Positions 6,006 through 37,117 of a stretch of DNA of 41,098 bases are shown here, piece after piece; the stretch's first letter is position 1; each line of letters begins with the position of its first letter. The position numbers and the translations under genes are program-made. The DNA comes from Oscillospiraceae bacterium (GTDB taxonomy: Bacteria > Bacillota > Clostridia > Oscillospirales > Ruminococcaceae): NCBI GenBank assembly GCA_017408395.1, contig JAFQUQ010000035.1, forward strand, positions 1-41,098. Reading direction: 5' to 3'. The notes below the pieces were generated by a model. That model saw nothing but the letters and a program-made list of their open reading frames with translations, did no database searches and was not told the DNA's origin.

Positions 6006-7066
6006 CTGCAAAAATAAGCTGTAAACAGTTTCTTATACTGCTTCTTATATGCCGTATCTTTACGCTGATGACCTTTGTTCCCCTTGCTTCGGAGGGGTAT
6101 GCATTCACGTCACAGATAACGGCGATGCTGATTTCAACGGCAATTCAGGCGGTGCTTGTTATACCTGTAATTCTGTTCAGCAGGCTTTGCCCCGACACTA
6201 CCGTCACCGCCGCAATTAAGGATAAAAACAAGGCGGCAGGTATCATTGCCGCCGCTTTATATCTGATATTCTTCCTTGCACATTCCGTAAACTGCACAAT
6301 ACACTTTATGGAGTTTTTAAGGAGCAGATTTTTTTACGGTGCAGGTGCGGCAGTAATGCTTGCGGTATTTGCGGCGGCGTGTGTTTACTGTGCCTACTGC
6401 GGCATTGAGGGGCTTGCAAGAAGCGGTGCGTTTGTGCTGATATTCTTTGTGCTTACCATAATTTTAATGACGGCGGCGTCCTTCGGAAATTTCAGCACCC
6501 TTAATTTTTATTCCGATAGCCCTGACAACAGCCTGTGGAAAGCGGTAACGGACGACCTTGCACGGAACTGTGAGATTACTGCGGCGGCATTTCTCATTAA
6601 AAATACCGATAAGCCCTGCCGTAAGGGATTGTACGGTCTGCTTGCGGCAAAGCTTGTTCTTACAGCGCTGATAATGTCGCTTGTTACGGGTATTCTGGGG
6701 GGATATGCTCAGCTGACGGACTATCCTTTTATGGAGGTCGGCTCTTACAGCGAAACACGGCTTTTCCAGCGGAACGACTCACTTTATCTTATTCTGTGGA
6801 CCCTTGCGGCGGTAATAAGCGTGTCGCTTTTTATCCGCATAACCGCAGGACTTGCCTGCGAAATTGCACCGAAGCTTAAATTTGCAAGCCCTGTTGCAGG
6901 GGCGGCTGTGTTTCTGATCTCGGCACTGTCAATTTATGCGGATTACGATTTTGCAAGACTTGCAGGCTATATCTGCGGCGGCTTTGCCGTGACGGTTTTT
7001 ACGGGACTCATTCCCCTTGCGGCTTATCTTATTTTACGAAAAAAAGGAGGCGGTGCAGTTGATTAA
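6002..7066 (+). CDS. GerB-type spore germination protein, transporter-like subunit
   Basis: 354 residues, almost entirely hydrophobic, with about ten predicted membrane helices in the APC-superfamily (GerAB/ArcD/ProY) pattern. It starts with TTG at 6002, overlapping the previous stop as TTGA, with GAGGAGG close upstream. In this receptor family the B subunit carries the germinant-binding pocket. The last residues (GGGAVD) are encoded by the bases that also form the ribosome site and start of gerC, so the three genes are tightly coupled. Confidence 0.93.
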   Translation: MTAKISCKQFLILLLICRIFTLMTFVPLASEGYAFTSQITAMLISTAIQAVLVIPVILFSRLCPDTTVTAAIKDKNKAAGIIAAALYLIFFLAHSVNCTIHFMEFLRSRFFYGAGAAVMLAVFAAACVYCAYCGIEGLARSGAFVLIFFVLTIILMTAASFGNFSTLNFYSDSPDNSLWKAVTDDLARNCEITAAAFLIKNTDKPCRKGLYGLLAAKLVLTALIMSLVTGILGGYAQLTDYPFMEVGSYSETRLFQRNDSLYLILWTLAAVISVSLFIRITAGLACEIAPKLKFASPVAGAAVFLISALSIYADYDFARLAGYICGGFAVTVFTGLIPLAAYLILRKKGGGAVD

Positions 7067-8132
7067 AAAGCTGACGGCGGCTTTGATTTTTACGCTTTTT
7101 CTGGGCGGCTGTTCCGTGGGCGAGGAAGTAAACAAAAGGGCTTTCGTGCAGGTCATAGGCATTGAAAAAACGGCTGACAACTACAACGTAAGCTTACAGT
7201 TCTACAAGCCCGAAAGCAGCGACGGCAACCCCGATATTTCCAAGGCAAACTCCGACTCAGCAAACGGCAGGGGTACTACCGTTACGGAAGCTCTTTCCGA
7301 CGCTGAGCTTAAAACAGGAAAATCCCTTTTCACAGGCCACACCAAGCTACTTGTTCTCGGCGGCGGTCTTGACGACCCTTCCGACGAGCTTGCCGTACTT
7401 TACAGCAACTCATCCTTCGGAAGCGTTTCACCGTCCTGCCCCGTGGTTTACAGCGACACCCCTTCCGCTGTCACCGACACCTTTATGACCGAGGGACTCT
7501 TCTCCGCAGACAGGCTTATCAGCATTATGGACTCCGCCGTAAACAGCGGCAAAGCCTTTTACACCTCCGTTGCCTCGGTTGCGGAAAGCACGGGTCTTGC
7601 AGGCTGTGCCGCCGTCCTGCCCACAGTTTATGCGGAAAAGGAAAATGTTTATTTCAGCGGCGGAATTTTTACCGACAGATACGGTACCCACGGCACCATC
7701 CCCGAAAGCGAGCTTTACGGAATGATCATCCTTAAGGACATATTCCCGGATGACACCGAAATCACCGTTCCTGTCAGCATAAACGGCAGTCCTGCCGCCG
7801 CTTCCGTTACAGCTTCGGACTGTAAAAAGACCGCTTCCTTAAATAACGGCAGGCTTGAAATAAACGCTGTCATCCACGCCGACATACGTATCACCGAAAA
7901 CAGCCGCCGTCTTGACGAGGAACGGCTCATCAGAAAGGTCTGCGAAAATATCAAGGATGCGGTGATAAGCGCCTACTCAACGGCGGTATGGTACAACAAC
8001 TGCGATGTTTACGACATAAACAAAGTCGTCCGCCGTGACTGTCCCGAAATTTATGATGAGCTTCTCTCCGAGGACAGCTCCCTTTTAAGGGACAGCGTTC
8101 TCAATGTCAAAATCCTTGCACGGAAGGTTTAA
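7059..8132 (+). CDS. Ger(x)C family spore germination lipoprotein
   Basis: 357 residues from a TTG at 7059. This start is chosen because AAAAAGGAGG at 7041-7050 is well placed and because it gives a clean lipoprotein signal: IKK, a hydrophobic run, and lipobox LGGC with Cys18. A longer frame from 7017 lacks a ribosome site. The family pattern NKRAFVQVIGIEK follows the lipobox, and the C-terminal domain ends with a hydrophobic/charged pattern (LLRDSVLNVKI). It overlaps gerB by 8 nt. The C subunit is a lipid-anchored outer part of the germinant receptor. I see no strong terminator after it before the lepA promoter. Confidence 0.93.
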   Translation: MIKKLTAALIFTLFLGGCSVGEEVNKRAFVQVIGIEKTADNYNVSLQFYKPESSDGNPDISKANSDSANGRGTTVTEALSDAELKTGKSLFTGHTKLLVLGGGLDDPSDELAVLYSNSSFGSVSPSCPVVYSDTPSAVTDTFMTEGLFSADRLISIMDSAVNSGKAFYTSVASVAESTGLAGCAAVLPTVYAEKENVYFSGGIFTDRYGTHGTIPESELYGMIILKDIFPDDTEITVPVSINGSPAAASVTASDCKKTASLNNGRLEINAVIHADIRITENSRRLDEERLIRKVCENIKDAVISAYSTAVWYNNCDVYDINKVVRRDCPEIYDELLSEDSSLLRDSVLNVKILARKV

Positions 8133-8166
8133 GACAGAATACACCTTTATTTCTCGCAAAAAAATA

Positions 8167-8195
8167 TTTACAAATCACAGCAGATGTGGTATAAT
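8167..8195 (+). promoter_or_regulatory. Sigma-A promoter of lepA
   Basis: TTTACA at 8167-8172, 17-nt spacer, TATAAT at 8190-8195, about 35 nt before the TTG start. Confidence 0.8.
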
Positions 8196-8230
8196 ATTTA
8201 GGATTATTGAGTTTTAAAGGATGTGTTTTC

Positions 8231-10039
8231 TTGTCATACAATCAGGATAATATCAGAAATTTCTGCATTATTGCCCACATTGACCACGGTAAATCCACGC
8301 TGGCAGACCGTATTTTAGAGCTTACCTCCACCGTTGCAAAGCGTGATATGGAAGAACAGCTTCTGGATAATATGGACATTGAGCGTGAAAGAGGCATTAC
8401 CATAAAAGCACGTGCGGTACGTCTTAATTATACCGCAACGGACGGTAAGGACTACGTTTTCAACCTTATCGACACCCCCGGCCACGTTGACTTCAACTAC
8501 GAAGTTTCACGTTCACTTGTTGCCTGTGAGGGTGCTATCCTTATCGTTGACGCTTCACAGGGTATCGAGGCACAGACCCTTGCAAACACCTACCTTGCAA
8601 TCGAAAACGACCTTGAAGTTATGCCCGTAATCAACAAAATCGACCTGCCCTCCGCCGACCCTGAAAGAGTTGCTGACGAGGTTGAAAATATAATCGGCAT
8701 CCCTGCAATGGACTCTCCACGTATCTCCGCTAAAATGGGTACAAACATTGCAGAGGTACTTGAACGTGTTGTAACGGATATTCCTGCTCCTCACGGTGAT
8801 ATTGACGCTCCTCTGAAGGCGCTTATCTTCGACTGCTTCTACGACAGCTACAAGGGCGTTATTATTTACGTAAGAGTCATTGACGGCGAAATCAGGATCG
8901 GTCAGAAAATCCGTCTTATGGCAACGGGTGCTGAATTTGACGTTGTTGAAACAGGCTATATGGGCGCTACCGACCTTGTAAACGCAGGCGTGCTCAAGGC
9001 AGGCGAGGTTGGCTACATTACAGCTTCAATCAAATCCATCGGCGACACCAAAGTCGGCGATACCGTTACTGACGCTGAAAATCCCTGCGACAACGCTCTA
9101 CCCGGCTACCGTGAAGTAAACCCGATGGTATTCAGCGGCGTTTATCCTGCTGACGGTGCAAAATACGGCGACCTCCGTGACGCACTTGACAAGCTTCAGC
9201 TTAACGACGCTTCACTTTCATTCCAGCCTGAAACCTCCGTTGCTCTCGGCTTCGGCTTCCGCTGCGGCTTCCTCGGTCTTCTCCATATGGAAATTATTCA
9301 GGAGCGTCTTGAACGTGAATATAACCTTGACCTTATCACAACTGCACCGTCTGTAATTTATAAAGTAAAGCTTACAAACGGCGAAACTGTTTTCATTGAT
9401 AACCCTACAAACTATCCTGACCCTGCTGTTATCGCTTCTGCGGAAGAGCCTATGGTTAAAGCTTCTATCCTTGCGCCTACCGATTTTACAGGAAACATTA
9501 TGGAGCTGTGTCAGGAAAGACGAGGCATTTTCAAGGATATGAAGTACCTCGACGCTTCAAGAGTTGAGCTTCACTACGAGCTCCCACTCAACGAAATCGT
9601 CTACGACTTCTTTGACGCTTTAAAATCACGCACCAAGGGTTACGCTTCCTTTGACTACGAAATGATGGGCTACGTTCCCTCAAAGCTTGTCAAGCTTGAC
9701 ATTCTCCTTAACGGTGACGTTGTGGACGCACTTTCCTTTATCGTTCACGCCGACAACGCTTATAAGCGTGCAAGACGTATTGCGGAAAAGCTTAAGGACA
9801 ACATCCCCCGTCAGCTGTTTGAAATTCCTATCCAGGCTGCTGTGGGCGGCAAGGTCATCGCAAGAGAAACCGTAAAGGCTATGCGTAAGGACGTACTTGC
9901 CAAGTGCTACGGCGGTGACATTACCCGTAAGAAAAAGCTGCTTGAAAAGCAGAAAGAAGGTAAGAAACGTATGCGTCAGCTTGGTACGGTTGAAGTGCCT
10001 CAGGAAGCATTTATGGCTGTGCTTAAGCTTGATGAATAA
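8231..10039 (+). CDS. lepA: Elongation factor 4 (LepA), ribosome-associated GTPase
   Basis: 602 residues from a TTG at 8231, matching the usual ~600. An upstream in-frame TTG at 8207 is rejected: AAAGG at 8216-8220 is placed for 8231, and family members start just before NIRNF. The GTPase motifs are AHIDHGKST (residues 15-23), DTPGHVDF and NKIDLP, followed by the LepA-specific C-terminal domain with [15 protein letters not shown]. LepA acts on translating 70S ribosomes and is implicated in translation under stress and in ribosome assembly. It stands in the classic lepA-hemW gene order, but hrcA-grpE-dnaK does not follow here. A terminator and a new promoter separate it from hemW. Confidence 0.97.
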
Positions 10040-14879: not shown

Positions 14880-16274
14880 TCACTCAAACAGCTCCGCTGC
14901 GGATGGATTGTACTTCTCTTTAAGCAGCTGCTCGTCAACACGTTCAAGTGCAGATTCAGGCAGCAGCGAAAGCAGATTCCAGCCGAGGTCAAGGGTTTCC
15001 TCAATGCGTCGGTTGTCGTCATCCCTCTGCGCAACAAAATATTTCTCAAACATTCTTCCGAAGTGCATATAGCTCTTATCAAGCTCGGAAAGTTCATCTT
15101 CGCCGATAACCGACGCAAGTGCTCTTGCGTCAATAACCTTTGCATAGGAAGCAAACAGCTGGTTTGAAACTGCGGAGTGGTCTGCTCTTGTATAACCTTC
15201 GCCGATACCGTCCTTCATAAGTCGTGAAAGGGACGGCAGAACAGAAACAGGCGGATATACTCCCGACTGCTCCAGTCCTCTGTCAAGAACTATCTGACCC
15301 TCTGTAATATAACCCGTAAGGTCAGGTACAGGGTGGGTAATATCGTCGTTAGGCATTGTTAAAATCGGTATCTGTGTAATTGAGCCCTGTGCATCGTTTA
15401 TGATGCCTGCTCTTTCATAAATTGAAGCAAGGTCGGAGTAAAGATAGCCCGGATAGCCTTTTCTGCCCGGGATTTCACCCTTTGAGGATGAAAACTCTCG
15501 CACCGCTTCCGCATAAGCTGTCATATCCGTAAGGATAACAAGGATATGCATATTCTTTTCAAATGCAAGGTACTCCGCCGCCGTAAGTGCACATCTCGGA
15601 GTAAGAATTCTCTCGATTATAGGGTCGTTTGAAAGATTAAGAAACATTACGACCCTTTGCAGAACACCGCTTTCCTCAAAGCTTCTGCGGAAATAATCGG
15701 CAACGTCATTCTTTACGCCCATTGCCGCAAACACTACCGCAAAGCCCTGTCCGTTGTCCTCGGCAATTTTAGCCTGACGTACTATCTGAACGGCAAGCTT
15801 GTTATGGGAAAGACCCGAGCCTGAAAAAATCGGAAGCTTCTGACCCCTGATAAGCGTAGCCAGAGCGTCGATTGAGGAAATACCCGTGTTGATATAGTTT
15901 CTCGGATATGTTCTTGAAACAGGGTTAAGAGGCTGACCGTTTATGTCGGCATACTTTTCAGGGAAAATCTCACCCAGTCCGTCAACAGGTCGGCCTGCAC
16001 CATTGAAAACACGTCCCAGCAGCTCCGTTGACAGGGGCATTTCCATAGGCTTGCCAAGAAAACGTGTGCGTGTATTTTTAAGGGACAGACCTTTCGTGCC
16101 CTCGAAAACCTGGAGCACAACACGCTTGCCCGATATTTCAACAACACGGCCTATTCTTGTACCGCCGTTGTCAAGTCTTATCTCAACTACCTCGTCGTAA
16201 GCCGCATCTTCAACGTTGTCAAGCACAACAAGAGGTCCGTTTATTTCCTTTAATCCTACATACTGTAAGCTCAT
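14880..16274 (-). CDS. atpB: V/A-type ATP synthase subunit B (regulatory nucleotide-binding subunit)
   Basis: 464 residues, standard length. It contains the beta-barrel start ([14 protein letters not shown]), the [16 protein letters not shown] region where catalytic subunits have a P-loop, and the [12 protein letters not shown] signature. As in other B subunits, there is no intact Walker A motif. It alternates with subunit A in the cytoplasmic A3B3 ring. The ATG sits 1 nt past the subunit A stop, behind GGGAGGTAACG. Confidence 0.97.
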
Positions 16275-16275
16275 T

Positions 16276-18033
16276 TTACGTTACCTCCCGTATGGTTTTC
16301 TTTATGCCCTCTTCAACCTCTTTGTCAAGCTGCTTGAACATTTCAAGGCAGTCGTTGGGGATGTCATATTTGATCTTTATCACCTTTTCAAAAAGTCCCG
16401 TTTCAAGCAGGGCAGCCGTGCTTACACCTGCCGCAACAGCCTTTTTGCAGTTCTCGTAAAGATTAAGGATAGACCCCATCATAAGATGCTGTTTTTCAAG
16501 GGGAACATAGGTATCGTCCTTATGGTAGGCATTCTGCTGAAGGAAGCCTACACGCACCGTTCTTGCAATTTCAATGATAAGCTTCTGGTCTTCGGGAAGA
16601 ACGTCGGAGCCGATAAGCTTTACGATCTCCATAAGCTTGTTTTCCTCGTGGAGAATTTTTGTAATTTCAAGACGGTATTTAAGGAAATCCTCATCGACAT
16701 TTTCAGTATAATAATCGGAAAGATCCTCCGTATATTCGGAGTAGCTGTCGTTCCAGTTTATAGCAGGGTAATGTCTTGCGTATGCAAGCGCCTTGTCAAG
16801 CGCCCAGAAGCAGCGTACAAAACGCTTTGTATTCTGTGTTACAGGCTCGGAGAAGTCCGAACCCTGAGGTGATACCGCACCGATTATCGAAACAGAGCCT
16901 TCCGCACCGTTTAAGCTTTCAACATAGCCTGCTCTTTCGTAGAATTCGGAAATTCTCGACGGCAGATATGCAGGGAAGCCTTCCTCCGCAGGCATTTCTT
17001 CAAGACGTCCGCTGATTTCACGGAGCGCTTCCGCCCATCTGGAGGTTGAGTCAGCCATTATTGCAATATGATAACCCATATCACGGTAATATTCAGCAAG
17101 GGTGATACCCGTATAAATTGAAGCCTCTCTTGCCGCAACAGGCATATTTGACGTATTTGCAATAAGCACGGTACGGTCTGTAAGTGCCTTGCCCGTTCTC
17201 GGGTCTACAAGCTCGGAAAATTCTTCAAGAACCTGAGTCATTTCGTTTCCGCGCTCGCCGCAGCCTATATAAACGATAATATCTGCGTCGCACCATTTTG
17301 CAAGCTGGTGCTGGGTCATGGTCTTGCCTGTGCCGAAGCCGCCGGGAACTGCGGCAGTACCGCCCTTTGCAATAGGCAGTATCGTGTCGATTACACGCTG
17401 TCCCGTAATAAGGGGCTTTTCAATGGGCAGACGCTTTTTAAAGGGACGTGCCTGCTTGATAGGCCACTTCTGACAGAGAGTAAGCTCCTCAACTGTGCCG
17501 TCAGCCTTTTTAAGCTTCACAACAGTATCGTTTACCCTGTAGCTGCCGTTTTCAGCCGTCCATATAACCTCGCCCTTAAGGTCGGGGTGCACCATACATC
17601 TGTGCTCGATAACAGGAGTTTCGGGGCAGACAGCATAAATATCGCCGCCCTCAAGCATATCCCCTGTTTTTACTTTTATTGTAACATCAAACTTTTTTTC
17701 CATATCAAGGTGCGGAACTTCACTTCCCACGGAAATAAACGCACCGCTTGCCTCCTCCAGCTTTTTAAGGGGACGCTCAATTCCGTCGAAAATATTTGAA
17801 AGTATTCCGGGGCCTAAAGTCGCCGATACGGGCATACCGCTTCCCGTTACAGACTCGCCCGGTTTAAGGCCTGTTGTGGATTCGTAGACCTGAATGGTGG
17901 TTTCCTCGGCTGTGATGGAGATAACCTCGCCTACAAGCCTGTTTTCACCTGCATAAACCATTTCAAGCATACTGAAATCATCGGTATCCCTTACCTTTAC
18001 AACAGGACCGTTAATTGAATATATAGTGTTCAA
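16276..18033 (-). CDS. atpA: V/A-type ATP synthase catalytic subunit A
   Basis: 585 residues from a TTG (complement of 18031-18033). This start is chosen because AGGAGG lies 8 nt before it and the protein then opens [14 protein letters not shown] like its homologues. A longer frame to 18111 would run through the subunit E gene. The P-loop GGFGTGKT is at residues 231-238; the bulge domain typical of A subunits lies before it, and [20 protein letters not shown] follows. It is the catalytic ATPase subunit of the A3B3 head, in a coupled operon with B and E. Confidence 0.97.
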
Positions 18034-18052
18034 ATCAGTTTCCTCCTGCGTA

Positions 18053-18634
18053 TCACGCAAAGGCGTTAGCGGCAACGAATGCCTGTCTTTGTTCTTCAAT
18101 TGCAAGGTCAAAGGTCTTGTCGATTATCATACCCTTATCCTTACAGTAAACCGCAAGTCCGCCCAGCTTTATTGATTCATCTGCACAGAAAACCGTATCA
18201 GGCGATTTTACAACTTTTTTAAGAGCGTCGGCATACTTCATATCATCTGGTGAAAGACGCACCTCCGCACTGCCGTTTACATTAAGCAGAAGCAGTGTTT
18301 TGATAAGGCTGTCGGCGTAAGCATTGGTTTTTCTGTATTCCGCAAGACGCTCCTTCACCTGCTGAAAAATGCTGTCCGAAAGCTTGTCACGGTGAATGAG
18401 AATTTTTCTTTTCATATCAAGCTCAGCCGCAGAAATTTCCTTTACAAAGCCCGTACCGTTCTTTTTGCTTTTCTCGTTAAAATATTTTTCCGCCTTAAGC
18501 TCGGCCTCTGTTTCCGCTTCGGAAATTATCCTGCTCTTTTCTTCCTCCGCTTCTGCAAGCATAGCGGCAATTTTTTCGTCTACATCTTCATTTACCGCAG
18601 AAATAAACTTCTGCAGCTTTTTATCACTGAACAT
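18053..18634 (-). CDS. atpE: V/A-type ATP synthase subunit E (peripheral stalk)
   Basis: 193 residues. A long charged N-terminal helix (about 10-65, rich in Glu, Lys and Ala) is followed by a globular C-terminal domain with IKLGGLAVYCKDKGMIIDKTF, the typical subunit E ending that caps the A3B3 head. AAAGGAG precedes the ATG. With the G/H subunit it builds the stator stalk. Confidence 0.9.
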   Translation of the reverse strand: MFSDKKLQKFISAVNEDVDEKIAAMLAEAEEEKSRIISEAETEAELKAEKYFNEKSKKNGTGFVKEISAAELDMKRKILIHRDKLSDSIFQQVKERLAEYRKTNAYADSLIKTLLLLNVNGSAEVRLSPDDMKYADALKKVVKSPDTVFCADESIKLGGLAVYCKDKGMIIDKTFDLAIEEQRQAFVAANAFA

Positions 18635-18652
18635 TCTGACTGCTCCTTTTCA

Positions 18653-18961
18653 TCAGAGTTTAAGCCCGATGGCCGACTCAATATAGCGTGAAATATTTTC
18701 GGTAATATCCGAAGTCGAGTGACGGTCGGGTATTTCAAGAATAAGCGGTGATTTTCTGTTGAGTTTAAGGTCGTGCACCGTTTCACTGCACATATTCACA
18801 AGCTTTTCCGTAATAAGTATAACGGCATTGTTCTTATCCTCCATAGCCTCAAGAAGCTTTTCCTTTACTTCCTCACGCTCGTGAACGACTACGCCGTCAA
18901 TTCCCGCAAGACGCATTCCGATCCGTGTGTCAACATTGTCGCTTATCAGATAGAAACGCAT
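18653..18961 (-). CDS. atpF: V/A-type ATP synthase subunit F (central stalk)
   Basis: 102 residues with a Rossmann-like pattern beginning RFYLISDNVDTRIGMRLAGI and continuing with NNAVILITEKL, the hallmark of subunit F. It sits on subunit D in the rotor. A weak GAGAGGTG ribosome site precedes the ATG. The position between K and E fits the usual operon order. Confidence 0.92.
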   Translation of the reverse strand: MRFYLISDNVDTRIGMRLAGIDGVVVHEREEVKEKLLEAMEDKNNAVILITEKLVNMCSETVHDLKLNRKSPLILEIPDRHSTSDITENISRYIESAIGLKL

Positions 18962-18974
18962 ACCTACACCTCTC

Positions 18975-19412
18975 TTAAATAAATATCATAAGCAGTGCAA
19001 CGATAAATCCGTAAAGTGCACAGCCTTCTCCAAGAGCAACGAAGATAAGAGCCTTTGAGAAGGACTTGGGGTCCTCGCTTACAGCACCGATAGCGGCAGG
19101 TGCGGCAGCTGCTACGGCAATACCGCCGCCGATTGAGCCAAGACCTACTGCAAGTGCTGCTGCAAGATAAGCCATACCGTTATCTGATGCAGCTTCTTCA
19201 GCTTCAGCCGTTGCAGCGGCAGGTGCAGCTGCTTCAGCATAAGCGTCCATTGCAAAAGGAGCCGCTACCGTACACATTACCATTACACCGAGAAATGTGC
19301 ACACATTTCCGATAATAGCTCTCTTAAACGACTTCTTTTTCTTTATTGCGTAAACCACAGGAAGTGCAAGAAGTCCTACAATCAGCACGGGAAGTAAAAA
19401 AACATACAGCAT
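18975..19412 (-). CDS. atpK: V/A-type ATP synthase subunit K (c-ring proteolipid) with extra N-terminal helices
   Basis: 145 residues from the ATG at 19412, preceded by TGGAGG. An upstream TTG at 19427 is rejected because it overlaps that ribosome site. Two hydrophobic segments (about 2-23 and 32-52) and an Ala/Glu-rich linker (53-80) come first. The c-subunit hairpin then follows: helix 80-110 with GLGSIGGGIAV and helix 119-145 with the ion-binding glutamate E129 in ALGEGCALYGF. The Gln and Thr that accompany sodium binding in Enterococcus NtpK are not apparent, so protons are the likelier ion (inference). Similar long K subunits occur in Clostridia. Confidence 0.9.
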   Translation of the reverse strand: MLYVFLLPVLIVGLLALPVVYAIKKKKSFKRAIIGNVCTFLGVMVMCTVAAPFAMDAYAEAAAPAAATAEAEEAASDNGMAYLAAALAVGLGSIGGGIAVAAAAPAAIGAVSEDPKSFSKALIFVALGEGCALYGFIVALLMIFI

Positions 19413-19430
19413 AACATATTCCTCCAAAAA

Positions 19431-21368
19431 TCATTCTATGTTTTCATCATAGTTTATCTTAACAGGTGTAAACGGTCTTCCGTCGCCTGAATAGAAGCGT
19501 GAGAAAATCTCGTAGAATTCAAGTCTCAGCGTCTGTATTCCAACCAGCAGACCCTCTATGCCCATTACAAAAATATTGCCTATAACAATTACTATCGGTA
19601 CAGCTGCGGCAGATACCTGCTCAGCCAGAGCCATTACAACCAGCATCATTGAAGCGTGGGAAAGTACGAAACCGCCTATTCTTACAAAGGAGAGCGTGTT
19701 TGTAGCATAACCCAGCAGGAACTCAAACACCTCAAAGAAGTTTGAAGCGATAAAGTCAACTATGCCGCCCTCGGCTTCGTATTTTTTTCCTCTCACCCAG
19801 TTTGCAAGCGGCTCACGCAGGAACATCATTATCAGCGGCAGAATTATAAACACCGCCACATAAACCGGCGAGAATATCTTCATTCCCAGCAGAGTTCCCA
19901 CAGCACCGAAAAGTATCGAGCCGAAGAACATAAGCCCTGCAATACCGTTGTTTCCGAAAAGAGCTTCGGCATAGTGCTTGTTCTTTATGCCCATAACAAT
20001 GTTTATCATAATCGAGATAAGCATTATCAGCACACCTATCGCAATCGCTGCAACCAGTATCGGTGCAACGTTGTGCATAATCTTAAACGGCAGGAAGGTT
20101 ATTCCCAGCGACTCGTACACAGGGTCAAGCAGCTCTTCATATCCGAACACGCTTCCGTAAAGCAGTCCGAACACCGCACCCGAAATGCCCACTCTTGTCA
20201 GAATAGGACCAAGCGCAATCTTTTTAAACTTCCACAGCAGCGCTCCCGCTATTGCAAGAACAAGTCCCTGTCCCACGTCGCCGAACATTATTCCGAACAG
20301 CAGAGTATACGTCACCGCAACAAAAGCCGTAGGGTTTATGCCGTTATAGGACGGCAGACCGTACATCTCAACAAACATCGAGAACGGCTGTGTGAATTTG
20401 TTGTTCTTAAGCTTGACGGGAGGCTGAAGCTTTCCGTTTGCGTCCGCAGGCTGCATAAGCACCGACACGCTTTCCATTTCGTCAAACAAATCCATAAACC
20501 GCTCCGATTCACTTTTCGGAACAAAGCCGATTATGTGGAATTTATCCTCCATCACGGCAACCATTCTTCTCAGGTCAAAGGTATCGTGCTGTGATTTATA
20601 GAGGGAGAAAAGCTTGTCAAGGAACGGCTTTTCCTTTTCCACGACGCTGTTTATTTCTTGGATATAATTTTCAAAATTCGCCCTGTTTTCATCTATCATC
20701 GCCGACAGCTCCGTAAGAGCGTCCTCGGTGTTGCCGTGAACAAAATCCGCAATCCTCATTCTCTCAAAGTACAGCGAATCGAAAATCTCATCCGTTTCAG
20801 CCGCACAGGACACGGGGGTAAAGAAAAATCCCCAGTAATACTCTTCTTCCTGTGTAAAGGGAGTAAAATAAAACAGCTTATCCTCATAGTAAGGCAGTTT
20901 TTCGTAGCTGTCAGCAGGCAGTCTTCCGAAGCGTACCTTTATATATTCACAGGAAAAAATCTTCTGCATATCAATATCAAGACCCGTCAGGTGATTGACC
21001 TGCTCCAGTGCCTTTTCGTAAGCCTTGAGCTTCTCCTCAGCAGCCTTTCTGTCTGCAATAAGACCGTTGAGCCTGTTCTTTAAAGCATTAAGATGTCTTT
21101 CGTGCTTACGCATATCTGTATTTTCAATATCGCTGTAATCCGCACCCTCGTATTTTATCTTTGCCGCAGAGGATATTTCACCAAGCAGTCTCAGTATGGA
21201 AACGTATGGATTTTCCTCTTTAAGGGTACCGTAGCCGCCGTCGGAGCTGCTGTGATTTGAGGCAGGCTCCATATGGAAACAGCCGCACTCGCTGAGTATG
21301 TCCAGCACGGGGTCAAGCTCCGATGTCAGTCCCGCAATGTTGACAAACTCCATTTTTTCTATTGACAT
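19431..21368 (-). CDS. atpI: V/A-type ATP synthase subunit I (membrane stator, a-type)
   Basis: 645 residues. The N-terminal half (about 1-345) is cytoplasmic, with coiled-coil regions. The C-terminal half has about seven or eight membrane helices, including FGIMFGDVGQGL and the NTLSFVRIGGFVLSHASM stretch, whose arginine is the conserved residue facing the c-ring glutamate. It forms the ion half-channels and links to the peripheral stalks. The start ATG opens MSIEKMEFVNIAG as in homologues. It stands 18 nt before subunit K and after subunit C. Confidence 0.95.
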   Translation of the reverse strand: MSIEKMEFVNIAGLTSELDPVLDILSECGCFHMEPASNHSSSDGGYGTLKEENPYVSILRLLGEISSAAKIKYEGADYSDIENTDMRKHERHLNALKNRLNGLIADRKAAEEKLKAYEKALEQVNHLTGLDIDMQKIFSCEYIKVRFGRLPADSYEKLPYYEDKLFYFTPFTQEEEYYWGFFFTPVSCAAETDEIFDSLYFERMRIADFVHGNTEDALTELSAMIDENRANFENYIQEINSVVEKEKPFLDKLFSLYKSQHDTFDLRRMVAVMEDKFHIIGFVPKSESERFMDLFDEMESVSVLMQPADANGKLQPPVKLKNNKFTQPFSMFVEMYGLPSYNGINPTAFVAVTYTLLFGIMFGDVGQGLVLAIAGALLWKFKKIALGPILTRVGISGAVFGLLYGSVFGYEELLDPVYESLGITFLPFKIMHNVAPILVAAIAIGVLIMLISIMINIVMGIKNKHYAEALFGNNGIAGLMFFGSILFGAVGTLLGMKIFSPVYVAVFIILPLIMMFLREPLANWVRGKKYEAEGGIVDFIASNFFEVFEFLLGYATNTLSFVRIGGFVLSHASMMLVVMALAEQVSAAAVPIVIVIGNIFVMGIEGLLVGIQTLRLEFYEIFSRFYSGDGRPFTPVKINYDENIE

Positions 21369-30352: not shown

Positions 30353-30381
30353 ATTATATCACGTTAATTACGCTTTGTCAA
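30353..30381 (-). promoter_or_regulatory. Strong sigma-A promoter of the tRNA-Ser pair
   Basis: Minus strand TTGACA (complement of 30376-30381), 17-nt spacer, TATAAT (complement of 30353-30358): a perfect consensus promoter, as expected for stable RNA. Confidence 0.9.
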
Positions 30382-30405: not shown

Positions 30406-30443
30406 TTTATCAAAATCAAAGGCAGAGGTTGCCCCCTGCCTTT
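30406..30443 (-). terminator. Terminator of the dynamin operon
   Basis: Minus strand stem AAAGGCAG..GG / CC..CTGCCTTT (30443-30418) followed by a T-rich GATTTTGAT tail, 5 nt after the stop of the second dynamin gene. Confidence 0.8.
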
Positions 30444-30447
30444 ATCA

Positions 30448-32205
30448 TCAACCGTACTTTTTAAGGATCTTCATTGCGTCATCCAGTACCGTTACTGCAT
30501 TTCCGAGATGCTGCTTCATTGCTTCGCTGTTTGCATACTCAGCCATTTCCTGCGCCTGATTAAGCACGTCACGGCTTGTATCAACCTGCATCTGATAAAT
30601 GCTGTCAAGAGTCTGGATTGCATTTTCTTCCATAACCTTATACGCCTTCTTGAGGTCCTTGACGGTATTGTTTCTGATGTCGTCGTAATTTTCAAGAACC
30701 GTGTCGATAATATCGGTTGTACGCTTACGCTTGAGGATTTTCTTGAATGAAGACATAGCTTCTGACGGGAAGCTGTCGCCCTCGCCTGCGCCTGCCGCAT
30801 TCATTACCGACTGTGTTACAAGCATATTAAGGCTGTCGAAAGCGTTCTCGTCAGTACCCGCAGCAGCAGCAGCGTCATCTGCAAGTGCCGAGATACCAAG
30901 CTTATGAGAAAGCTCCTTACCCATTTTGATTATCATTTCATCAAGAGCTTCGGCGTGAATGTCAAGACACTTCTTATACGCCATACCAACCTTATCCACA
31001 AGATACGGATAGAAATATTTTTCTATATCCTCAGGGGAAGCGGTATTTCTTGACTCGTAAATGTCCTCACGGAGCTTTGAGAAGAAGCCGTACATCCACT
31101 GTTCAGCCTGCTGCTGCATTTCAACAACGCTTAAAAGTATCTTGGGACGCTGACGCTCCAGCGCATCCGCTACTGTTTCACACTCGCTGTTTACCTGCTC
31201 AGAAAGGTCCTGAAGCTTTTTCTTGTCCATTGCGATCATATCGTAGATCATATGAATTCTCGCAGCTGTATCATTAAGCATCAAATTAAGCATTGTAAGT
31301 ACACGCTGTGTTCTGATAAGGTCCTTCTGAAGAATGATCTCTCTCTTAAGGGACATCTCAAATTTAAGGAACTCGTTTTCGTAATATTCCTGGAAGCCCT
31401 TGATGTCGGGACGGTTCAGACCGATTTTACGTCTGTATTCGTCGATGCCGCTTACGCCGTAAACAAACGCCTGAGGGCATATCATTTCACAGCGCTCGCT
31501 TACACGGTTAAGTATCTTTTCAACGTCCTCCTCGGAATTCATAGCGTCTATCATATTTACAAGCACGTAAAGCTTGCTGAAGCTCATAGGTCTGATATGG
31601 CTTGCAAGGAACAGCTGCTCCGATTCGGAGAAGGGCGAAAGTGCAGACGCAACATAAATAATAGCGTCAGCGTTTACAAGATAATCCTGAACCTGTTTAT
31701 CAAGACAGTCAAGGTCGCTAAGACCAGGAGTGTCAACGATACGGATTTCTTTAAGAAGCTCCGCATTGTCCTTTATGTCAATATAATCCAGCGAATCAGG
31801 GAAAGCACGCATAAGCTTTTCAAGCTTTTCACGCACAAGGTCATCGGCTGTAAGAGTAATTCTCTGACCGTTTTTGAGCACCGCCTCAGCCAGCGGATTT
31901 TCACCGTAGCTGATTGAGTTTATGGTAAATGTTTCAGGTGCCACGTTTACGGGAGCAATGGATTTGCCGAGAATTGCGTTGATTATCGTACTCTTGCCGC
32001 GTTTGAAGTCACCCAGCACAACAAGTGAAAACGGCTCGGTACGGCGTTTCATAATGGCTTTGTCCCATTCCTTGAGGTGGTCGATGAATTCTTCGCCAAG
32101 GATACGGCATACTGCGCTGTTTGCCAGGAGCGCTCTCATTGAAGTCTGTATATACTCAATATCAGGCTCGGCAGCAGCGTAATTAAGGCTAACATCTTCC
32201 ATCAT
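30448..32205 (-). CDS. Dynamin-like GTPase, soluble paralogue (third gene of the dynamin operon)
   Basis: 585 residues. GTPase motifs: P-loop GDFKRGKST at 65-73, DTPGLSD at 158-164 and VNMIDAM, all in the bacterial dynamin-like order. It then has long helical, coiled-coil regions (about 285-585) as in dynamin stalks. Unlike its upstream paralogue it shows no hydrophobic paddle. GGAGGTG precedes the ATG, whose A is the last base of the previous gene's TGA stop (TGATG), so expression is coupled to the M48-like protein. It probably works with the other dynamin in membrane remodelling or defence; that is inference from paired bacterial dynamins such as the Leo and DynA/B systems. Confidence 0.92.
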   Translation of the reverse strand: MMEDVSLNYAAAEPDIEYIQTSMRALLANSAVCRILGEEFIDHLKEWDKAIMKRRTEPFSLVVLGDFKRGKSTIINAILGKSIAPVNVAPETFTINSISYGENPLAEAVLKNGQRITLTADDLVREKLEKLMRAFPDSLDYIDIKDNAELLKEIRIVDTPGLSDLDCLDKQVQDYLVNADAIIYVASALSPFSESEQLFLASHIRPMSFSKLYVLVNMIDAMNSEEDVEKILNRVSERCEMICPQAFVYGVSGIDEYRRKIGLNRPDIKGFQEYYENEFLKFEMSLKREIILQKDLIRTQRVLTMLNLMLNDTAARIHMIYDMIAMDKKKLQDLSEQVNSECETVADALERQRPKILLSVVEMQQQAEQWMYGFFSKLREDIYESRNTASPEDIEKYFYPYLVDKVGMAYKKCLDIHAEALDEMIIKMGKELSHKLGISALADDAAAAAGTDENAFDSLNMLVTQSVMNAAGAGEGDSFPSEAMSSFKKILKRKRTTDIIDTVLENYDDIRNNTVKDLKKAYKVMEENAIQTLDSIYQMQVDTSRDVLNQAQEMAEYANSEAMKQHLGNAVTVLDDAMKILKKYG

Positions 32206-33197
32206 CAGACACCTCCCTTTTTGTTGCTGTCAGCGCCTACGATGATCTCGCATCGTACTTCAAGCGCCTGCTTTGTAACTGTGTGAACGTCAACCTTGTC
32301 GATGTCGGTTCTCCAGTTGAAAAGCACTTCACAATTAAGGAATTCCATACCTGCGAAAACTCTCTTTTCAAGCTTGCTCCAGGATGAATCAAGGTTAATG
32401 CTTCTTGCAGGGGTAACGTGAAGAGTTTCAAACATCTTTGCTACCCTTTCGCTGTCGTATCCGCAGCCTGTACGGCTGTAAATATCGTTGAGCCCCTTAC
32501 TGTGTACGCTTGCCATAATTTCAGCGTAATTCTTCGGATTATCGCAGCAGATGATACCTGCTCTGTCGGCTGTTACGTCTGAAAGGGTTATCCAGTCAAA
32601 CATTGCCGCTGACATTTTACCTGCCGATTCATCGGCAACGGGGTTGATAATGTCATTATCCATAACAAGTCCGAAGCTTGGAGCCGCCATATAGTAAATA
32701 CAGTGGTTGTTCTGGATATGACCGCACTCACGGCCTATAAGGAAGCGTAATTCTTCCTTTGTGCAGGCTTCACAGAGCGCTGTTGTAAGCACTACCGCAG
32801 GGTCGGTATTTTCTGCGGAAAGTGTGTAAATTTCAAGCTTTGCCGAGTTTCTTACGAAAACCGCAGGCATATTTATTTTAAGACGCTCGGAGCAGTCCTT
32901 TGCAGCCTTATAAACATCGGGGTACTGTGTAGCACCTGCCTGGCTTGCGGTCTGGAAGACACGCTTGAACTTATTTGGAATCTCGTTTGTGACAAGATTT
33001 TTATAGATTTTATTCCAGCCCGAATGGGTGTTGAATTTCTGACGAAGTGAGAAATCCGCATCAAATGCATAGTCTATTCTGCCGCCGATAATGTGATCCT
33101 TGAAGGTTCTTGTTCGTGCGGAGAGGTATGCGGCAAAGCCCGTATCAATTTCGAGCAGCGGATTTTGTCCTGCGTATGAATCAAGTACGCTGTTCAT
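32205..33197 (-). CDS. M48-metallopeptidase-like protein with altered zinc site
   Basis: 330 residues, GGAGG before the ATG, no signal peptide and no clear membrane helix. The middle resembles the M48 core: EELRFLIGRECGHIQNNH at about 148-165 stands where M48 enzymes have [IV]-G-H-E-x-x-H, and LSDVTADRAGI at about 205-215 stands where they have the E-x-x-A-D-R-x-G ligand motif. Here the first histidine is R156 (RECGH) and the third ligand is D207 instead of Glu. Two of three expected ligands thus differ, so it may be a pseudoprotease with a scaffold or sensor role. It is encoded between two dynamins, 34 nt after the first and overlapping the second. An M48 fold is inferred from motifs only. 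Confidence 0.75.
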   Translation of the reverse strand: MNSVLDSYAGQNPLLEIDTGFAAYLSARTRTFKDHIIGGRIDYAFDADFSLRQKFNTHSGWNKIYKNLVTNEIPNKFKRVFQTASQAGATQYPDVYKAAKDCSERLKINMPAVFVRNSAKLEIYTLSAENTDPAVVLTTALCEACTKEELRFLIGRECGHIQNNHCIYYMAAPSFGLVMDNDIINPVADESAGKMSAAMFDWITLSDVTADRAGIICCDNPKNYAEIMASVHSKGLNDIYSRTGCGYDSERVAKMFETLHVTPARSINLDSSWSKLEKRVFAGMEFLNCEVLFNWRTDIDKVDVHTVTKQALEVRCEIIVGADSNKKGGV

Positions 33198-33231
33198 ATG
33201 TTACTACCTCCTTAAACATTATGCAGACCGC

Positions 33232-35283
33232 TTATTCTGCGTTATCCGTAAGCTTCTGATGCAGATTGTAGGTTTCTGCAAGCAGAGCGCCCGTGTACTC
33301 GGCAATGTTATGGAGCTTTTCCTTTTCATTGTCGGACATGGATTTCTTTTCAGCCTTAAGCTGATTAAGGCTGTCGAGGGTCTGCTGTGTATCAAGAAGG
33401 ATAATTTCTGTTTCCTGTTCAATCTTCTTCTTAAGTCCTTCGAATGAAGCAAATACCTGCTGACGTACTGTTTCGGAGAAGTCGCTGGAAATCTTCATTT
33501 CGTGGAACTGCTTCTGAACGGAGCTCTTGAAGCCTGCCTTGTACTTGTCGATACGCTCCTGAACCAGAAGCTTATCTACGGAGAATTTACCCGTAAATGT
33601 ACCTGCAAGGCCTGCAATTGCCATAAGGCACAGTGTAACAGGACCTGCGGCTGTAACGCCCAGGACGCCTGCAAGGTAAACTGCGGCATAGAAGGTTGCG
33701 TAGAAGCCTGCAAAGCCTGCCGCACCGCCGAGAAGTGCACCCTTTATGCCTGCTTCTCTGAAGCCGATGAAAAGACCGCCTGTACCTACGCTGCCGATAG
33801 CAACACCGATGATCTGGTCAACAACACCGCCGTTACGTGTGTGCTTGGCAGGTACGGCAAACATTTCCTGAATTCTTGCAACGGAAGCAAAGAACTCGTC
33901 TTCAAAGGACTGGAGTCTTGCAGCTTCGTCGCTGAGGGCAATGTTGATCTCATTCTGGATCTGCTCACAGATAAGCTGAGCCTTATTTTCAATGTTTTCC
34001 TTGATTTTTTCCGTAAGCTTGGAGTAAACGATTTTAAGCTTATCTCTCTTGAGGTCGTCGGCAGACATAGGATAATCGTCGATAACCTGCATAGCGGTCT
34101 CTTCGATCTGTGTCCAATAGCCGTCAAGGATAGGCTGTAAGCTTTCAAATACGTTGTTTGCGGCATCGTTGATACGAACGAACTCAGCACGCTTCTTTGT
34201 ACGGATCTCGTCGATTTCTTCGATAGCTGCGGTATATTTATCCATAAACTCATCGGTTTCCATCATAAGAGCGTTCTCTCTGATAACGATGGAGTTGATG
34301 ATCTCGGAGCCTGAGCTGATGATTTTGTTTGCAAGAATCTGGAGAGTGATAGCGCCTCGTTCCTGAGTAAGCATAGTTTCAAGCACGGACTCAAACTTAG
34401 GGAAATTACTTTCCTCAAGCATAGCCATATCGCCGCTTTCCTTGGCCATAAGCGCTTTCTTTGCGTAAACGCCGATAACCTTCGGCTTGCCTATCTTACG
34501 CTTGTAAACGGCAAATTCCTTTGAGTTCTCACCCATTACCGCCTTTGCCTTTTCCATAACGTAGCTGCCGATACGCTTTTCTACCGTTTCAACAATTCTG
34601 TCTTCGTCCTCCTTTGAGAAGGTACCGAAGCAGTTTACGGCAAAAATAATACGTCCCAGGTCGCTTGTAAGCATTTTCTTTTCAAGGAATTCCTTTTCAA
34701 ACTGTGAGAAAGGAGAGTTTGCGCTGATAACAAAAACAGCAGCGTCGATTTCAGGAAGAATGGAGAGTGTAACGTTGGTCATCTGCTCGTCATCATTAAG
34801 ACCCGGAGTGTCGATGATGTCAACGTTGTTCTTACAGAAATCGGTAGCGTAGTAAACGGTAGCCTGCTTTACGGTTTCAGCTCTCATTTCCGATTCAAAG
34901 GAAAGCTTTGTAACGTAATCGGCAAGCTTGTCGATGTCAACTCTTTCGCTTGCACCGTTCTTGTACTCAACCTCAACGTAAGGGTTGTCGCTGTATGTAA
35001 CACGGTTGAGCGTAGCAGTCGCAGGGAGAACGTCGGCAGGAAGCACCTCCTCGCCGAGAAGTGCGTTGATGAGGGTACTCTTGCCTCGTTTGAATTCGCC
35101 GACAATAGCAACCTCAAAGTGCTCATTGGCAACTTTTTCAATAGTATCCGCAATTGATTTTGCGGCATTGTTAAGATCAAGATCTTCGCTGTATTCCTTA
35201 AGCTGGTACAGACAATCGGTAAGCTCGCCGACCGTCTGTTTAAATGCGGCGTAACTGCCGTAATTCAGACCTTGCTGTTCCAT
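33232..35283 (-). CDS. Dynamin-like GTPase with hydrophobic paddle (first gene of the dynamin operon)
   Basis: 683 residues from ATG at 35283, chosen because AAGGAGGAG lies directly upstream; the open frame extends 26 codons further but without a ribosome site. GTPase motifs are GEFKRGKST at 62-70, DTPGLND at 158-164 and VNCFGT. The helical stalk is interrupted by a Gly/Ala-rich hydrophobic region at about 487-564, the likely membrane-inserting paddle, as in bacterial dynamin-like proteins and mitofusins. It likely tubulates or fuses membranes in a GTP-dependent way. A TTGACT-18-TATAAT promoter lies upstream, divergent from hisA. Confidence 0.92.
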   Translation of the reverse strand: MEQQGLNYGSYAAFKQTVGELTDCLYQLKEYSEDLDLNNAAKSIADTIEKVANEHFEVAIVGEFKRGKSTLINALLGEEVLPADVLPATATLNRVTYSDNPYVEVEYKNGASERVDIDKLADYVTKLSFESEMRAETVKQATVYYATDFCKNNVDIIDTPGLNDDEQMTNVTLSILPEIDAAVFVISANSPFSQFEKEFLEKKMLTSDLGRIIFAVNCFGTFSKEDEDRIVETVEKRIGSYVMEKAKAVMGENSKEFAVYKRKIGKPKVIGVYAKKALMAKESGDMAMLEESNFPKFESVLETMLTQERGAITLQILANKIISSGSEIINSIVIRENALMMETDEFMDKYTAAIEEIDEIRTKKRAEFVRINDAANNVFESLQPILDGYWTQIEETAMQVIDDYPMSADDLKRDKLKIVYSKLTEKIKENIENKAQLICEQIQNEINIALSDEAARLQSFEDEFFASVARIQEMFAVPAKHTRNGGVVDQIIGVAIGSVGTGGLFIGFREAGIKGALLGGAAGFAGFYATFYAAVYLAGVLGVTAAGPVTLCLMAIAGLAGTFTGKFSVDKLLVQERIDKYKAGFKSSVQKQFHEMKISSDFSETVRQQVFASFEGLKKKIEQETEIILLDTQQTLDSLNQLKAEKKSMSDNEKEKLHNIAEYTGALLAETYNLHQKLTDNAE

Positions 35284-35366
35284 AAAACTCCTCCTTGTGT
35301 CTATATAATCAAAAACAAAATGTAATATACGTTCAAAGTACACAATTTGCTCAATATACATATTAA

Positions 35367-35396
35367 ATTATAACACCTTCTTATACAAAAAGTCAA
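35367..35396 (-). promoter_or_regulatory. Sigma-A promoter of the dynamin operon
   Basis: Minus strand TTGACT (complement of 35391-35396), 18-nt spacer, TATAAT (complement of 35367-35372), giving a leader of about 75 nt. Confidence 0.75.
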
Positions 35397-35493: not shown

Positions 35494-36267
35494 ATGAACT
35501 TCAGACCTTGCATTGACATACACAACGGAAAGGTTAAACAGATAGTGGGCGGCAGTCTTGCAGACGCAGGAAACGCCGCTGACGAGAACTTTGTTTCCGA
35601 ATACGACGCAGGCTTTTACGCCGAGCTTTACAAAAGCCGCAATTTAAAGGGCGGTCACATTATCATCCTCAACGCCGCAGGCTCCGAATTTTACGAGGCT
35701 GACCGTCAGCAGGCGTTCAGGGCGCTTTCCGCATACAGCGGCGGCCTTCAGGTAGGCGGCGGCATAAACGCAGACAACGCCGCAGATTACCTCAACGCAG
35801 GCGCTTCACACGTTATCGTCACATCCTACGTTTTCAAGGACGGTGCCGTAAACTTCGACAATCTTAAAAAGCTTACCGACGCTGTGGGCAAGGATAAGCT
35901 TGTTCTTGACCTGTCCTGCCGAAAAAAAGAGGACGGCTACTATATTGTAACCGACCGCTGGCAGAAGTTTACAGATGTCAAGCTTAACGAGGATACTCTC
36001 GATATGTTTTCATCCTACTGCGACGAATTTCTTATTCACGCCGTAGATGTCGAAGGCAAGGCACGGGGCATCGAAAAGGGTCTTGCCGAAATGCTGGGCG
36101 GATGGGGTAAAATCACCCTTACCTATGCAGGCGGCATCGGCTCATACGCTGACCTTGACATACTCAATGAGCTTGGCAGAGGAAAAATCAATTTTACCGT
36201 AGGAAGTGCCCTTGACATTTTCGGCGGCACACTTGATTTTGAGAAAATTGCCGCTTACGGCAGATAA
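35494..36267 (+). CDS. hisA: ProFAR isomerase HisA, eukaryotic (HIS6) type
   Basis: 257 residues, a TIM-barrel isomerase of histidine synthesis. It opens FRPCIDIHNGKVKQIVGG, the form seen in fungal and plant HIS6, instead of the bacterial PAIDL start. Likely catalytic aspartates are D8 and D139 (LVLDLSCRKK); phosphate-binding glycines lie in QVGGGI (about 86-91) and YAGGIGS (211-217). It converts ProFAR to PRFAR. It stands alone, far from any his operon, with its own promoter; ACGGAGAAT precedes the ATG. Some Clostridia and a few other bacteria carry this eukaryote-like form, pointing to old lateral transfer (inference). Confidence 0.92.
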   Translation: MNFRPCIDIHNGKVKQIVGGSLADAGNAADENFVSEYDAGFYAELYKSRNLKGGHIIILNAAGSEFYEADRQQAFRALSAYSGGLQVGGGINADNAADYLNAGASHVIVTSYVFKDGAVNFDNLKKLTDAVGKDKLVLDLSCRKKEDGYYIVTDRWQKFTDVKLNEDTLDMFSSYCDEFLIHAVDVEGKARGIEKGLAEMLGGWGKITLTYAGGIGSYADLDILNELGRGKINFTVGSALDIFGGTLDFEKIAAYGR

Positions 36268-36334: not shown

Positions 36335-37117
36335 CTAACAGACCTCCTCCATCCTGTACTTTTTATAGACCTTATAAGCAATAAAGCACAGCACAGCCGC
36401 ACATATCAGGTCCGTATAGAATATACCCACAACAACCATATTCGATATATGCGCAATAAAATTGGACGCAGTATGAAGCCCCACAGCCGCAAGAAGCAGC
36501 TTTCTGCTGTCATCGTAATGCACAGCCGCCATTACAATCACCGACAATGAAATATGCGTAACCATTCCGCACAAACACATCAGCGCACCAAAAAAGCACA
36601 ATCCCATACCTGAATCATACTCAGCTGCGACCCATTCGGTAATTTCAGCCGCATTCCCCGAATTTTCAGCTATAAAATTTTCCAGTCCCACACGGTTTAT
36701 TTTCATTGCGTCAAACATATCGCCGAAACTGACAATACCTGTTGTAAACGCAATTTCAATTCCGCCGTGACCGATACCATAGGAAAAGGCATCCTCTACT
36801 CTGTAATAATTCGGAATAGCCCATCTGAACACAGCATATCTGCCGACTTCCTCAAGCACTCCCGATATAACCGACAGCACAAAAAAGCCGAATATCATAT
36901 GCCGTGCCATATCCTCATTGATTACCGCACTCCGCACAACTGCTCTTACAACCGAAATAAATGAATACGAAAACACACCTATTATCAGCGGAATGATACG
37001 TGCATACATTTTATATTTTGCGGCTATAAACATTCCTGTCGGAAGCAGAAACGCAACACTTCCCGACAAGGCATACCCTATAATTGTGCTGTCTGTAAAA
37101 ACAAGCTCCGTTTCCAT
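36335..37117 (-). CDS. YhfC-family intramembrane glutamic protease-like protein
   Basis: 260 residues with about seven membrane helices. Family motifs are SGVLEEVGRY at 85-94 (the paired glutamates E89/E90) and SYGIGHGGIE at 112-121, with a later histidine helix (AVGLHTASNFIAH). These resemble the ABI/CAAX and PrsW glutamic intramembrane protease pattern. Substrates are unknown. GGGGGC precedes the ATG. It is downstream of degV but separated by a terminator, and no sharp promoter is visible. Confidence 0.85.
   Translation of the reverse strand: METELVFTDSTIIGYALSGSVAFLLPTGMFIAAKYKMYARIIPLIIGVFSYSFISVVRAVVRSAVINEDMARHMIFGFFVLSVISGVLEEVGRYAVFRWAIPNYYRVEDAFSYGIGHGGIEIAFTTGIVSFGDMFDAMKINRVGLENFIAENSGNAAEITEWVAAEYDSGMGLCFFGALMCLCGMVTHISLSVIVMAAVHYDDSRKLLLAAVGLHTASNFIAHISNMVVVGIFYTDLICAAVLCFIAYKVYKKYRMEEVC

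Follow-up and report, generated by a model that had tools for sequence, protein, structure and literature searches.

An M48-fold protein, most likely a pseudoprotease, lies between two dynamins in a conserved three-gene set of Ruminococcus-type gut bacteria

What might a protein with the fold of an M48 peptidase be doing between two dynamin GTPases? The question is raised by contig JAFQUQ010000035.1 of an Oscillospiraceae bacterium (GenBank assembly GCA_017408395.1), whose positions 1 to 41,098 form the window, the whole stretch of DNA analysed here. On its minus strand, from 35283 to 30448, the list of open reading frames and a reading of the sequence give three co-directional genes, encoding a dynamin that we call DynA, an M48-like protein (M48L) and a second dynamin, DynB. 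A first-pass annotation had described them as a module in which the middle protein “regulates or anchors” the dynamin pair in an undescribed membrane-stress or defence role. Our comparisons establish that Ruminococcus-type gut bacteria carry a fixed three-gene set with an M48-fold protein between two dynamins. We propose, with a probability of about 0.5, that it encodes a heterotypic BDLP/mitofusin-like dynamin pair together with a dedicated third subunit, M48L, which probably acts on DynB and controls assembly at the membrane.

The three genes recur as a unit. A scan of a genome collection confirmed 198 relatives, and the best 80 of these, including R. albus 8 and R. bicirculans 80/3, comprised 72 complete triplets, seven cut by contig ends and one locus (L104) with a split M48L. 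Our full set had 102 loci including the window, 89 of them distinct; counting a dynamin cut at a contig end as present, 81 of the 89 were immediate triplets with a dynamin on both sides of M48L, and the other eight comprised five without one dynamin at a contig end, two in which DynB is preceded by a spacer or an additional frame, and the single split gene. Among 148 genomes sampled from the family, 22 matched M48L: 19 have the order DynA-M48L-DynB, G042 carries M48-DynB only, its M48 gene lacking the start and lying downstream of a glycosyl hydrolase gene, and the weak matches in G059 and G096 are other M48 proteins, with no dynamin nearby by the DynA and DynB profiles. DynB was found at E < 1e-200 in exactly the 20 genomes with a true M48L, and G028, G055, G096 and G135 gave weaker dynamin matches only. 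In a class-level sample of 391 genomes, all five with a strong DynB match also have M48L, and no M48 match was found in 11 further genomes with distant dynamins (E 1e-20 to 1e-33). Had such dynamin pairs usually lacked the middle gene, the idea of a fixed module would have failed; instead the gene accompanied DynB in 20/20 family genomes and 5/5 class genomes. The flanking genes are not conserved across loci, and since gene order is kept across the clade, the arrangement lies far beyond chance.

The proteins on either side of M48L are neighbours that both carry a dynamin GTPase domain with G1 and G3 motifs, as is looked for in a dynamin pair (Pfam Dynamin_N, 108.2 bits for DynA and 79.7 bits for DynB; cut-off 27). 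The first-pass observations on these paralogues hold: the P-loops lie at residue 62 in one and 65 in the other, DTPG is at 158 in both, and only one has a paddle, with hydrophobic stretches lying within residues 486-569 of DynA and none exceeding the threshold used in either DynB or M48L. DynB has canonical GTP-binding motifs (G1 GDFKRGKST, G3 DTPGLS, G4 NMID). DynA has GEFKRGKST at G1 and DTPGLN at G3, and its G4 position reads NCFG, without an Asp; this departure from the usual dynamin motif recurs in 84 of 87 DynA sequences. Alignment to Nostoc BDLP1 extends over DynA residues 46-667, paddle region included (E 7.6e-29), and the structure model of DynB has the same general fold; a helical trunk, with a membrane-binding tip in at least one partner, is thus predicted from sequence and model. 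The NCBIfam model DynmDynABac (1187 positions) gave 58.1 and 42.4 bits on the two proteins against a cut-off of 1600.

It is the middle protein for which the first-pass description, that of an M48-like protein, has to be corrected, as it had missed the absence of the zinc-binding motif of M48 peptidases. The fold itself is well supported, both by Pfam Peptidase_M48 (33.1 bits, cut-off 20.3) and by structural matches; in Foldseek alone no match of M48L fell below an E of 0.001, the best still being M48 enzymes. In the window, RECGH replaces HExxH and Asp replaces the third-ligand Glu, so that two of the three zinc ligands are missing, and a working M48 protease in the window was set aside on this ground. 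Ligands are intact in only 3 of 88 alignable M48L loci, the second His having become Arg, Lys or Cys in 61 of them, as compared with 120/120 sister-family M48 proteins among the matches listed. The ligand-less form makes up one clade in a tree that was rooted at its midpoint and retained the ligand columns, “loss” leaning on intact distant sequences. Of the 88 loci, 87 still have the catalytic Glu, and M48L retains 27 of 51 otherwise fixed columns. Because the zinc ligands are lost in one clade and intact in the sister family, M48L is most likely a pseudoprotease, derived, as the sequences suggest, from an active M48 protease of the type described below. With its metal site gone and these residues kept, it has the pattern expected of a pseudoenzyme that binds rather than cuts. 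Loss of the metal site is paired with the change to NCFG in DynA.

Three DynA-M48-DynB cassettes, at loci L043, L177 and L178, have the intact motif (HECGH and ExxxD). L043 belongs to the window's own family (Oscillospiraceae bacterium MB08-C2-2) and the other two to other families of the class; L177 (2460-4178) and L043 (1234-3036) have an extra dynamin gene upstream of the cassette. Sampling of further genomes from the genus or family of these carriers yielded no further cassette, and the intact M48 of L043 matched nine plasmid records, none covering 80%, with no annotated dynamin near the match in the three that were opened, whose gene table is incomplete. In a phylum-level sample, an HExxH-bearing M48 gene lies directly beside a dynamin in 4 of 12 non-cassette matches, coming first in L240, L246 and L248 and last in L247; a chance value of 8e-8 for this adjacency assumes four dynamins in 2,200 genes and omits the misses in class and family. 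An order-level search added L249, with a dynamin two genes from the M48 gene. For 12 weaker M48 matches in the class sample, the regions of 11 were fetched (G364 and the second place of G472 lay outside) and contained no dynamin by the DynA and DynB profiles. A universal M48-dynamin link was rejected, weaker class and family M48 matches having no dynamin nearby. From these sequences the link is one that recurs without being universal, and it is found with intact enzymes in lineages that do not belong to the ligand-less clade. Descent of the dead cassettes directly from the intact ones was also rejected as too simple: G051 shares 81% identity with the window in LepA, as other family members do, and only 40% in DynA. 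As separate observations, L182 (4-kb region, 6143-8614) and L184 (6907-9362) each have three tandem M48-like genes without dynamins, an ExxxDRA-type motif being found for one M48-like gene only; these may be a further case of intact M48 proteins beside altered ones. L191 (6745-12626) has three consecutive dynamin-like genes and no M48 gene.

A comparison of divergence patterns in 69 cassettes, from which truncated, duplicate and five odd cassettes had first been dropped, enabled us to ask which dynamin M48L follows. In this mirror-tree analysis M48L and DynB correlate at 0.715 once DynA is removed (bootstrap 0.61 to 0.80), and M48L and DynA at -0.267 once DynB is removed (bootstrap -0.43 to -0.09). 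This correlated divergence and the near-overlap of the two genes make DynB the likely partner. In the model that we propose, DynA would supply the membrane paddle and DynB canonical GTP binding, while M48L, as a cytosolic pseudoprotease subunit, would regulate or assemble the pair via DynB. It is plausible that M48L holds the pair inactive, or guides its assembly, until the membrane is damaged, whereupon the pair would cluster and then tether or seal the membrane. We infer that M48L binds the dynamins, with DynB preferred, that it controls assembly and that the module has a role in membrane stress. The pair itself would probably behave as other heterotypic dynamins of bacteria do, which are described as membrane-tethering tetramers (PMC6104087) or, in the fused DynA of B. 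subtilis, as clustering at the membrane and delaying lysis (PMC8844932). Regulation, as first suggested, fits synteny and correlated divergence; M48L, lacking a membrane segment, is unlikely to be an anchor.

Several points weigh against this proposal. The case for a third subunit is one of association; the mirror-tree difference may partly reflect the slow divergence of DynA and shared ancestry; and 15 of the 51 fixed columns are mostly lost in M48L, a wider change than loss of the ligands. In L042 even the catalytic Glu is gone and the protein is strongly degenerate, and M48L is split in L104. The set is also accessory, occurring in 20 of 148 family genomes, with carriers and non-carriers intermixed in a ranking by LepA identity to the window. 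DynA identity nevertheless rises with that of LepA (Spearman 0.65, p 0.009, n = 15; G042, G049, G051 and G103 left out of the 19 other carriers). Together this fits an accessory module passed on by descent, often lost and perhaps sometimes transferred. A mobile or phage module was rejected. The one DynB match in a phage collection, L258 (MT836781.1), is an unannotated 8.8 kb human-fecal scaffold labelled UNVERIFIED Bacteriophage, which has the whole cassette, with CECGR as its M48L motif, and is more likely a bacterial fragment; a search of viral contigs with P0107 gave no relative.

In mitochondria, the M48 protease OMA1 cuts the dynamin OPA1, and this parallel raises the idea of a Bacillota counterpart in which an intact M48 enzyme, its gene lying between or next to those of dynamins, clips its partner under stress and the Ruminococcus lineage converted it into a non-cutting pseudoprotease subunit that holds the dynamin, with a rewired G4 (NCFG) in DynA; we regard this extended scenario as somewhat unlikely. 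An intact M48 motif, which an OMA1-OPA1-like pairing would need, is absent from the window and present in L043, L177 and L178. Alternatively, M48L may still bind metal through altered Cys, His and Asp ligands, as a modified protease or as a sensor of metal or of redox state. The retained catalytic Glu would suit this, as would a possible Cys-His-Asp site in the 73 of 107 proteins of the M48L set with Cys, Glu and His and with Asp as third residue; yet Arg at the first position in the window and the frequent replacement of the second His argue against a metal site kept throughout the clade, making such a function quite improbable. Still less probable is that M48L is the decaying remnant of a protease, kept as a passenger between two useful genes: it does diverge faster than either dynamin (median distances of 0.98 for M48L, 0.70 for DynB and 0.39 for DynA), and the degenerate and split copies would be expected of decay, but there is only one split frame among 89 loci, many residues are fixed outside the metal site and the gene is present in all 20 DynB genomes of the family sample.

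Two further alternatives concern the module as a whole. That it is an anti-phage system, resembling LeoABC or B. subtilis DynA and with M48L sensing infection, is unlikely in our view. The patchy distribution and changing flanks are compatible with defence, DynA of B. subtilis postpones the lysis of phage-infected cells (PMC8844932), and the PADLOC profiles LeoA and LeoBC match DynA (E 3.1e-19 and 9.4e-19, over most of the profile length) and DynB (E 3.6e-14 and 4.7e-9, over part of it). However, these matches are explicable by shared dynamin ancestry, LeoC reaches only E 0.046 on DynB, and M48L matches no PADLOC family, leaving the defence role first suggested without direct support. To our knowledge, LeoABC has no M48 component. 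Least probable of all is that the genes merely share an operon, for instance within one stress regulon, and that their products do not act together; adjacency cannot show contact, and the promoter is a consensus match only, but the order is constant despite changing flanks, the genes nearly overlap, and M48 genes adjoin dynamins in other gene orders elsewhere in the phylum.

Most bacterial dynamin genes come in operon pairs, and DLP1/DLP2 of Campylobacter jejuni (5owv, 5oxf) form a 2:2 tetramer that tethers liposomes (PMC6104087). That system likewise has two different dynamins side by side and, putatively, a further gene (HcpA-like) in the operon, which is neither M48 nor located between the dynamins, whereas here a probable pseudoprotease separates them. 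Nostoc BDLP1 (2j68, 2j69, 2w6d) resembles both of our dynamins; the cassette differs from it in pairing them around M48L and in the missing Asp at G4 of DynA. In another Bacillota species, B. subtilis DynA works in surveillance of the cell membrane, where it clusters, and delays lysis (PMC8844932); it consists of two dynamins fused in one chain (PMC6104087), whereas here they are separate genes. M48L shares profile and fold with the M48 peptidases HtpX, BepA, Ste24 and OMA1, from which the ligand losses and lack of a membrane segment set it apart. We found no account of an M48-dynamin link in the open-licence literature, among the matches listed, in agreement with the earlier description of the module as undescribed.

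The gene layout was as first annotated, with 34 nt between DynA and M48L and a one-base overlap (TGATG) between M48L and DynB (Table 1). A Shine-Dalgarno-like sequence precedes each of the three starts; for DynA, the ATG at 35283, with AAGGAGG 6 nt upstream, is preferred to the start called at 35361 (709 aa). The single promoter and terminator once assigned to the operon do lie where expected; they are plausible only, the scans showing no clear excess over shuffled sequences for either promoters (12 sites against 7.9, standard deviation 3.1) or hairpins (8 against 6.2, standard deviation 2.3). The divergent HisA-like gene upstream has homologues upstream of 11 of the 102 cassette loci, as one of the two commonest neighbour families. 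Downstream lie two tRNA-Ser genes, and a YhfC-family gene is a second protease-type gene near the operon.

Table 1. Positions of the operon's features and of neighbouring features in the window
Feature	Position	Strand	Remarks
DynA, BDLP/mitofusin-like dynamin GTPase with hydrophobic paddle region	33232..35283	-	683 aa; profile, motif, hydrophobicity, BDLP alignment
M48L, soluble M48-fold protein, most likely a pseudoprotease	32205..33197	-	330 aa; profile, fold, motif alignment
DynB, dynamin GTPase without paddle	30448..32205	-	585 aa; profile, motifs, structure model
Promoter-like site TTGACT-18-TATAAT upstream of DynA, TG before -10	35367..35396	-	consensus match only, 11/12
Terminator-like hairpin directly 3' of DynB	30417..30444	-	12 pairs; consensus match only
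Sigma-70-like site just upstream of the two tRNA-Ser genes, TG before -10	30353..30381	-	perfect consensus, 12/12
HisA-like gene	35494..36267	+	PF00977
YhfC intramembrane metalloprotease family gene	36335..37117	-	PF10086
Spore germination-related genes, then lepA	4506..10039	+	GerXA and Ger(x)C models, below cut-off
V-type ATP synthase genes	14880..21368	-	including subunits B, A and I

The roles of bacterial dynamin pairs are still poorly understood, and our findings suggest a third partner for them. A conserved partner of protease fold, with both intact and dead forms among the lineages, offers a handle on how dynamin pairs may be controlled. The coupled loss of the metal site and change to NCFG in DynA points to concrete residues, and R. 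albus 8 and R. bicirculans 80/3 are among the carriers as named isolates. Should the intact form prove to cleave its dynamin, control of dynamins by proteases would no longer be confined to mitochondria.
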